Virus record (IMG/VR): IMGVR_UViG_3300047373_000289
Coordinates: 1 to 56,363 of that record
DNA: 56,363 nt
From: a virus
Direction: 5' to 3' (one strand)
Position numbers and translations under genes: made by a program. Numbering within the stretch: the stretch's first letter is position 1; the number at the start of each line of letters is the position of its first letter. Shown in pieces: positions 52,029 through 53,417 of this stretch. A model generated the notes under the pieces. It had not been told where the DNA came from and searched no databases. It saw only the letters and a list, made by a program, of their open reading frames with translations.

Positions 52029-52591
52029 CGTACAAACTTCTGCAAGCCAGACATTTGCTTGTCTGTAAGGCTTTCACCGTACTTACCTACGATTGATTCA
52101 TAAGCTTTCTTCTTGTCGGTCTGCGACTTGATGTAAGCAACAGCCTTGTCCATGATATTCTCAGGCGGGTCAGTATCAAACTTCTCCTGCGCTTTCTTAA
52201 TCATCTTCTTAGCCTTGGTAGGTTCGGCAGTCTCTTGCTTAGCGATAGCATCTGACACCTCGTTAGCTGAAGCGATTGATGTGTCAATACCAATCCCTAA
52301 CATAGCCAATGCACGACCGATAGCTGATGTCTCGCAGTTCTCTACGTAGCTAGTCTTGTTGATGTTGCTACTGCCCTGCACTTCGTGTGCATGACCTACT
52401 GATATGATGCGATGTTCGGGATCAGCAATGGACGCCTTGCATACACATTGAGCATCGTCTAGCACAGTAAACTCTGTGATAAGACTCCAGTTCTTGTACT
52501 GCTCCTCCTGTCGGAAGAACTTGATTCGTTCGTTGACCTCAACGTACTGCTTGCCACGAATGTTCGTGGTCTTGAATTTGTAATTACTCAT
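52025..52591 (-). CDS. ERF/Rad52-like single-strand annealing protein
   Basis: 188 residues. YVEVNERIKFFRQEEQYKNW, then ITEFTVLDDAQCVCKASIAD and ISVGHAHEVQGSS, and especially KTSYVENCETSAIGRALAML are the pattern of ERF/Rad52-like phage annealases. The C-terminal 60 residues are a Lys-rich linker plus a small helical tail (KAYESIVGKYGESLTDKQ). It would anneal complementary strands during phage recombination, paired with the exonuclease downstream. Overlaps its neighbours by ATGA at both ends. Confidence 0.8.
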   Translation of the reverse strand: MSNYKFKTTNIRGKQYVEVNERIKFFRQEEQYKNWSLITEFTVLDDAQCVCKASIADPEHRIISVGHAHEVQGSSNINKTSYVENCETSAIGRALAMLGIGIDTSIASANEVSDAIAKQETAEPTKAKKMIKKAQEKFDTDPPENIMDKAVAYIKSQTDKKKAYESIVGKYGESLTDKQMSGLQKFVR

Positions 52592-52956
52592 ACGAGTTCT
52601 TGTTTTAGATTTTCAGCTAGACCCTCTAGCCTTTTGATTTGGATTCGAATTGTTTTTAGTTTGTCCTCAATGCTGTTGTATCGGAGGTGCATATTGCACA
52701 GCCTTACAGCTAACAGGTACTTGTCTTCATACCCATCCCATGAGAATAAATTGGCTTCGTGCTGACCAGTGTGGTGTACTACTGTGCTGTGGTCTTTACC
52801 AAAGCTTTTGCCTACTTCCGTCTTGGTCATGTGCTGAGCCATAGCAACCATTAGTGCGGCTCGTGCCTGAACTTGTGGTGCTTCTCTAGATGTATTGGGG
52901 GTGAGGTTGAGGGTAGCATAGTACTCCTCTTGTAGCCTTTTAATGTCATCATTCAT
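52588..52956 (-). CDS. Stand-alone DnaA domain IV-like DNA-binding protein
   Basis: 122 residues. Residues about 30-80 match DnaA domain IV: QARAALMVAMAQHMTKTEVG, then SFGKDHSTVVHHTGQHE, with the DnaA signature DHSTV-x-H. The usual ATPase domain is absent. The C-terminus is a coiled coil (DKLKTIRIQIKRLEGLAENL). Such domains bind DnaA-box-like DNA, so it may recognise a phage origin or regulate early genes. It is the first gene after the promoter at 52971-53001 and is coupled to the annealase gene by ATGA. Confidence 0.75.
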   Translation of the reverse strand: MNDDIKRLQEEYYATLNLTPNTSREAPQVQARAALMVAMAQHMTKTEVGKSFGKDHSTVVHHTGQHEANLFSWDGYEDKYLLAVRLCNMHLRYNSIEDKLKTIRIQIKRLEGLAENLKQELV

Positions 52957-53001: not shown

Positions 53002-53003
53002 GG

Positions 53004-53100
53004 AAAGGAGAGACTTTGTTTCTCAATGCTCTCAATGGTGCTTATCGCTAGGCAACTGGCACGTTGCAGGATCTCCCTGCACACCATCCGTCTCTCCCCT
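53004..53100 (-). ncRNA. Candidate structured RNA in the early block
   Basis: In the 145-nt gap between genes, the minus-strand RNA folds into nested stems. AGGGGAGAGAC (53100-53090) pairs with GTCTCTCCTTT (53014-53004). GATGGTGT (53088-53081) pairs with GCACCATT (53041-53034). A TGCAGG/CCTGCA hairpin sits at 53081-53065, sharing its first base, 53081, with the end of stem 2. Several G-U pairs exist only on the minus strand (they would be A-C on plus), so selection acts on the minus-strand transcript. No known RNA family is recognised. Confidence 0.45.
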
Positions 53101-53102
53101 TG

Positions 53103-53417
53103 TCAGCGTTCTGACAATGCCATGTCGTAACTGCTGAGGATTTCGTAGAACTTAACGTAGTAATACATAGACCTTGACACTTCGGTAAGGCTATTGGCTA
53201 CACGCTCCACAGATATACTATCTTCTTTGAGAAGGTCTTCGACCAAACTCTCTGCGATATCAGGGAACTGAGGTAGATACTCTGACACATCTTTGCTTAG
53301 CCATACGTCAATATCTGCTTCAAGTATATCGTCGCAAGCATACGTGGCTGCTAAACGTTCTGCGTTAGATGGTTCTTTGTTTTTCAATACAATTTGAATT
53401 GCTTGTTCGTTAGTCAT
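53103..53417 (-). CDS. Early protein of unknown function
   Basis: 104 residues, helical and acidic (SNAERLAATYACDDILEADI, then FPDIAESLVEDLLKEDSISV, then RSMYYYVKFYEILSSYDMAL). No recognised motif. The start ATG overlaps the end of the 47-residue ORF upstream (ATGACTAA), indicating coupling. It is followed by the structured RNA region and the recombination promoter. It may be an anti-host or regulatory early protein (context only). Confidence 0.6.
   Translation of the reverse strand: MTNEQAIQIVLKNKEPSNAERLAATYACDDILEADIDVWLSKDVSEYLPQFPDIAESLVEDLLKEDSISVERVANSLTEVSRSMYYYVKFYEILSSYDMALSER

Follow-up and report, generated by a model that had tools for sequence, protein, structure and literature searches.

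The question raised by this locus is what is encoded in the gap that separates the leftward ORFs 53103-53417 and 52588-52956 (both on the minus strand) in the window, that is, the whole 56,363-nucleotide stretch of viral DNA that was analysed. A preliminary description, which gave the coordinates and the sequence of the gap correctly, had proposed a junction-like structured RNA specific for the minus-strand transcript. The gap does encode a structured RNA on the minus strand, and it is near certain that this RNA is a three-way junction and one member of an undescribed family of ~80-nt RNAs, situated here inside a leftward gene array. A covariance model of the family (R1), built on 102 sequences, has a single match in the window, 53003-53098 on the minus strand (53.2 bits, E 4.5e-15) [Table 1].

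The junction is formed by a closing stem, P1, which is variable in sequence, a hairpin, P2, with a GAGAN loop, and a second and variable hairpin, P3. The junction strands AUGGUG, AC, and UGAAACA are near-invariant across the family. The P2 loop resembles a GNRA loop, and the 3′ G of the GG in AUGGUG and the C of the AC strand form a covarying pair (G-C, A-U, or C-G). Two of the helices drawn in the preliminary description are present: the 11-bp outer stem AGGGGAGAGAC / GUCUCUCCUUU, including its two G-U pairs, and the 6-bp hairpin, which is P2. The window sequence does allow the 8-bp inner stem GAUGGUGU / GCACCAUU, but this stem has no comparative support. It was rejected, as it shows no compensatory change among 19 clade relatives and a particular G-C pair is disrupted in 12 of 16; its 3′ side is missing from three to four relatives in the clade. 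The supported third helix, which replaces it, is the GUGC/GCAU pairing of P3. The accessory hairpin that precedes P1 is confined to the phage clade of the window, where variants (in L037, L065, and L111) have changed yet complementary stems around the same AACG loop. The DnaA-like stretch of the downstream ORF scores 28.9 bits against PF08299, just below the curated cut-off of 31.5.

Table 1. Parts of the RNA element and its flanking ORFs, in window coordinates.
Feature	Position	Strand	Basis or remark
Whole RNA element	53003-53098	-	Covariance model R1
P1 5′ arm, GGGGAGAGAC	53090-53099	-	Pairs with 53005-53014
P1 3′ arm, GUCUCUCCUU	53005-53014	-	Pairs with 53090-53099
Junction strand AUGGUG	53082-53087	-	At least 90% conserved in alignment A1, partly fixed by the search patterns
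P2 hairpin UGCAGG-GAGAU-CCUGCA, GAGAN loop	53065-53081	-	Pairing across 102 sequences
Junction dinucleotide AC, between P2 and P3	53063-53064	-	Conserved
P3, GUGC (53059-53062) / GCAU (53026-53029), interior variable	53026-53062	-	Covariation in the clade and the family
Junction strand UGAGAAACAAA, family consensus UGAAACA	53015-53025	-	Near-invariant columns
Accessory hairpin UGUCAG-AACG-CUGACA	53101-53116	-	Directly 5′ of P1; overlaps the upstream ORF's stop codon
Upstream ORF, 104 aa, no family match	53103-53417	-	Stop codon adjoins the RNA element
Downstream ORF, 122 aa, DnaA C-terminal helix-turn-helix-like stretch	52588-52956	-	PF08299, sub-threshold

Folding of the single sequence gives -34.7 kcal/mol on the minus strand (z -2.8, moderately above chance) and -33.4 kcal/mol on the plus strand (z -3.5). 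Since the two strands fold about equally well, a structured RNA cannot be proven, nor its strand chosen, from the single sequence. Comparative data allow both. Across the 102 diverse sequences, pairing amounts to 99.3% in P2, where four pairs are doubly changed, and to 81% in P3, where this holds for all four pairs; each of the nine counted P1 pairs is likewise doubly changed, 71% of the P1 cells being paired when register shifts are included. Shuffled and slid controls showed far lower pairing. In 19 sequences, mostly from the clade of the window, the three helices are 99.1% paired with 11 doubly changed pairs. P1 keeps 99% of its counted pairs in these relatives (six of eight doubly changed), and within the clade P3 is 98.6% paired with three doubly changed pairs. 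Hence P1, P2, and P3 all covary, both family-wide and inside the clade. The preliminary description had named stems missing from relatives and a lack of covariation as grounds for discarding the RNA. When this was examined, the RNA was found to be retained in relatives with covarying helices, and its junction-like character is borne out by the covariation and the covariance-model family, with no significant match in Rfam.

Read on the minus strand, G-U pairs outnumber A-C combinations 31 to 4 in P2 and 55 to 17 in P3, and the minus strand is therefore the functional one; P1 (75 versus 67) is uninformative in this respect because of its register shifts. The minus-strand specificity claimed earlier thus stands on these family-wide counts, while the single-sequence argument offered for it is weak. 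Conservation of the core letters is partly by construction, because the search patterns fixed them. Those patterns have no bearing on the covariation seen in P1, in P3, and in the variable pairs of P2, and model R1 later found family members with altered core letters.

At least 119 stretches of IMG/VR contigs contain a match to the P2 18-mer, GTGCAGGGAGATCCTGCA; read side by side, they have a common layout in unrelated phages. A pattern that leaves P1, P3, and four P2 pairs free, TGGTGNNNNGGGAGATCCNNNNACN{6,36}TGAAACA, matches at least 120 viral stretches and 23 genome loci, the latter in thaumarchaeal MAGs, Terriglobus, Luteolibacter, Verrucomicrobia, Planctomycetota, Streptomyces, Nocardia, and others. 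There are ~180 distinct viral loci among the matches listed. The carriers are many uncultured phages together with a few bacteria and archaea. A phage usually has one or two copies of the RNA; two are found in 10 of 40 phage records, in tandem or further apart, some by >10 kb. Three classes were sampled because each holds a carrier, and the element is present in 1-3% of their genomes: three of 250 in the class of the thaumarchaeal MAG, eight of 285 in that of Luteolibacter, and six of 250 in that of Terriglobus. Several bacterial copies have phage-like surroundings. Sequenced isolates with the element include Terriglobus albidus DSM 26559, Luteolibacter pohnpeiensis KCTC 22041, Streptomyces indicus, and Nocardia suismassiliense, which makes the family directly testable. 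A blastn search with the core against named phages and plasmids returned no good member, apart from one divergent 27-bit match with changed core letters in Microcystis phage Mwe-Yong1318-1 (L410:2984-3062, plus strand), at an intergenic site 5′ of the gene for the small terminase subunit. In three loci of the Verrucomicrobia class (L313, L314, and L328), the element lies within longer inverted repeats of the GGCGGTCAGAGACCGCC type, resembling repetitive palindromes. Genes at L208 and L328 looked transposase-like by eye, a label that is not claimed here; Pfam gave no match for L208.

Where do the copies lie relative to genes? With ORFs called by a simple script, not a gene finder, the upstream gene within 300 nt of intergenic copies is on the same strand in 71 of 107 non-redundant cases and on the opposite strand in 16 of 107, and the spacing from stop codon to AUGGUG is commonly 11-30 nt. 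The RNA is thus sense to its neighbouring genes and follows their stop codons. The flanking genes on both sides are of mixed functions and no particular gene is associated with the family, which speaks against the origin-linked transcript suggested at first. Intergenic copies are found at 13 convergent operon ends versus five divergent positions. A same-strand tRNA gene lies within ~150 nt of four copies, one of which is between two tRNAs. Where a phage has a second copy, this is in several cases flanked by a stop codon on one side and an intrinsic terminator on the other, and in some phages the element stands just before an intrinsic terminator with further same-strand genes beyond. Some copies precede helicase genes. 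In the L036-L109 phages, where copies lie 5′ of a helicase ORF, the P1 5′ arm could pair with a preceding GCGGC (GCGGC...GCCGC), giving a possible alternative hairpin.

The element itself was also considered as an intrinsic terminator and rejected, as it has no GC-rich stem followed by a T-run. T5 follows P1′ in seven of 129 copies versus six and five in control stretches, despite the terminators or hairpins that follow a minority: a strong hairpin lies within 100 nt downstream of 11 of 131 copies (controls, 0-1 further downstream and seven just upstream). The region of the window has no minus-strand terminator-like site, and the terminator-like role put forward for it was given up.

In archaea, one thaumarchaeal genome (G002) has 18 copies. 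Approximately 11 of these lie 80-145 nt downstream of PQQ-dehydrogenase genes (PF01011) and one more ~300 nt downstream; the genome has, by an inferred count, ~35 such genes in all. Many archaeal copies (L239-L299) have an A/T-rich, TATA-like stretch at a fixed distance, ~42 nt before TGGTG. This would fit some archaeal copies having their own promoter, with a start near the 5′ end of P1, a signal that is not independent from copy to copy because some are recent duplicates.

The element is also found inside genes. In the terminase large subunit (phrog_38), it is recognisable and in frame in 15 of 80 loci, at an acidic loop that in most relatives is replaced by a short linker. An alignment of 11 of these copies shows 96% pairing in P1 and 100% in P2, with a total of 12 doubly changed pairs, and resolves P3 poorly; the RNA structure and the open reading frame are thus kept together. 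In-frame copies were also identified in a portal gene of the Mu type (L175, PF06074), in a group of ~12 related ORFs without an assignment, and in one unassigned ORF of 764 aa, while L301 was dropped as an in-gene copy since its P2 does not pair. The in-gene copies are read in different frames, and therefore the RNA, not a peptide, is the conserved entity. A natural loss event is seen in the L340 terminase gene, where the element has decayed and its core is lost, with the P1 arms and the reading frame kept. The peptide remaining in frame despite the decayed RNA looks translated, not spliced. An intron was rejected on this ground and because stop codons directly precede the element. Its presence inside translated genes also means that the action of the RNA must be compatible with translation.

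What might such an RNA do? The reading that we favour, with a probability of roughly 0.38, is that of an RNA module that acts in cis at the end of a coding segment, irrespective of the gene. The RNA would fold in the mRNA directly downstream of a coding segment and alter the fate of its own transcript, most likely decay or 3′-end processing, either through its compact fold itself or by binding a broadly conserved cellular factor. No particular neighbouring gene would be needed. Both the cis action and the target, decay or processing, we infer from the arrangement of the copies: such a module is favoured by gene independence, sense orientation, a location where coding segments end, and the tolerance of copies within genes. 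Covariation of all three helices, the same-strand upstream genes with their short spacing from the stop codon, and the mixed flanking genes are consistent with it, as are the copies at convergent operon ends, those between stop codons and intrinsic terminators, and the many archaeal copies downstream of PQQ-dehydrogenase genes. The same holds for the terminase copies that keep their pairing in an open frame. However, ribosomes would unfold the in-gene copies, a poor fit to a decay barrier, and one or two copies per phage are few for a general stabiliser. Moreover, the TATA-like stretch of many archaeal copies fits a separate promoter and a small RNA.

The latter feature leads to the first alternative, a stable small RNA, which had already been suggested and is possible, if on the unlikely side. 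It would act in trans, be processed from or transcribed beside phage genes, and bind a factor of the host or the phage. A number of one or two per phage, in varied places, would suit it, and so would the copies neighbouring same-strand tRNA genes and the archaeal TATA-like stretch. The in-frame copies within terminase and portal genes, the constant sense orientation directly after stop codons, and the 18 copies in a single archaeal genome are difficult to reconcile with such an RNA.

A new class of small self-cleaving ribozyme would account for a compact junction with many near-invariant unpaired bases and variable helices, as well as for the patchy distribution in phages, bacteria, and archaea, the lack of gene preference, and the tandem copies. 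We consider it doubtful, as the element is intact in terminase and portal genes that stay open, and cleavage there would break up the mRNA; this argues against efficient self-cleavage. Searches for circular permutations, including a P3-open form, gave ten pattern matches, all of them tandem copies or chance, and Rfam models of the known self-cleaving classes matched neither the window copy nor four relatives. Improbable, too, is a nascent-RNA antiterminator that, by analogy with HK022 put, would modify RNA polymerase without a dedicated protein. It could act from inside a gene because it would fold during transcription, and gene independence, sense orientation, a length of ~80 nt, and often one or two copies per phage fit this model; HK022 likewise has two put sites (PMC9378689), and the phages in which the element stands just before an intrinsic terminator with same-strand genes beyond could be understood in this way. 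On the other hand, read-through would be harmful at the convergent operon ends where some copies lie, archaeal copies would face a very different polymerase, and put has two stem-loops where this RNA forms a three-way junction.

That the RNA is a metabolite riboswitch controlling the gene downstream is highly improbable: the junction is aptamer-like and some copies precede helicase genes, yet the downstream genes are incoherent, the position follows the upstream stop codon, and there are copies within genes and where convergent operons end. Scarcely credible, too, is a site that works as DNA (in recombination, in packaging, or as a single-strand origin) and folds by chance. It would explain the many kinds of place, genes included, but P2 and P3 have many more G-U than A-C combinations when read on one strand, and the orientation follows transcription.

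Irrespective of mechanism, so much conserved structure in many phages and archaea with no Rfam entry points to a sizeable function. The in-frame presence in terminase and portal genes with covarying helices is very unusual and constrains the mechanism. We tentatively raise the possibility that the family constitutes a new autonomous class of functional RNA, catalytic or controlling RNA polymerase or a nuclease without a dedicated protein, which would be common to phages, bacteria, and archaea, horizontally spread, and able to work within translated genes.

How does the family compare with known systems? It apparently belongs to no known RNA class and is apparently undescribed. Across the whole window, Rfam 15 gave only tRNAs above the gathering threshold, and when the window copy and four relatives were searched at relaxed settings, all matches were below threshold and attributable to chance. 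A pair of adjacent tRNA genes lies at 2126-2276 on the plus strand. In the open-licence literature, no paper on the family was found, and an earlier description may exist elsewhere. Reverse transcriptase (PF00078), which would suggest a link to a DGR, a retron, or a group II intron, was found in none of 40 phage records, some of them fragments.

Small self-cleaving ribozymes of phages (hammerhead, twister, pistol, hatchet, and HDV-like), some of which lie near tRNA genes, are likewise short, patchy, and gene-independent, with variable helices around a conserved core. The present RNA differs from them in being kept in frame in essential genes, in matching none of their models, and in showing no circular permutation. 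Y RNAs, which are bound by Ro60 and some of which are phage-encoded, also have a closing stem made from the two RNA ends. In contrast to what would be expected of Y RNAs, a Ro60 (TROVE) domain is encoded in just two of 40 element-bearing phage records, and a host-encoded partner would be possible. In the phage records of L067 and L102, a Ro60-like (TROVE) protein is encoded ~2 kb downstream of the element.

The HK022 put RNA is ~70-80 nt long, consists of two stem-loops, is present at two sites, and acts without a dedicated protein (PMC9378689). The present RNA is similarly phage-encoded, ~80 nt long, and usually present in one or two copies per phage. Unlike put, whose two-stem-loop structure is not seen in the comparative fold of this family and whose sites lie near early promoters, it is a three-way junction that follows genes and is also found in archaea. 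Finally, viral exoribonuclease-resistant RNAs (xrRNAs) are compact junction folds in 3′ untranslated regions, sometimes in tandem and also within coding RNA (PMC6299227). They share no sequence or model match with the present family, which nevertheless resembles them in being a compact junction fold after genes, sometimes in tandem and also within coding RNA.
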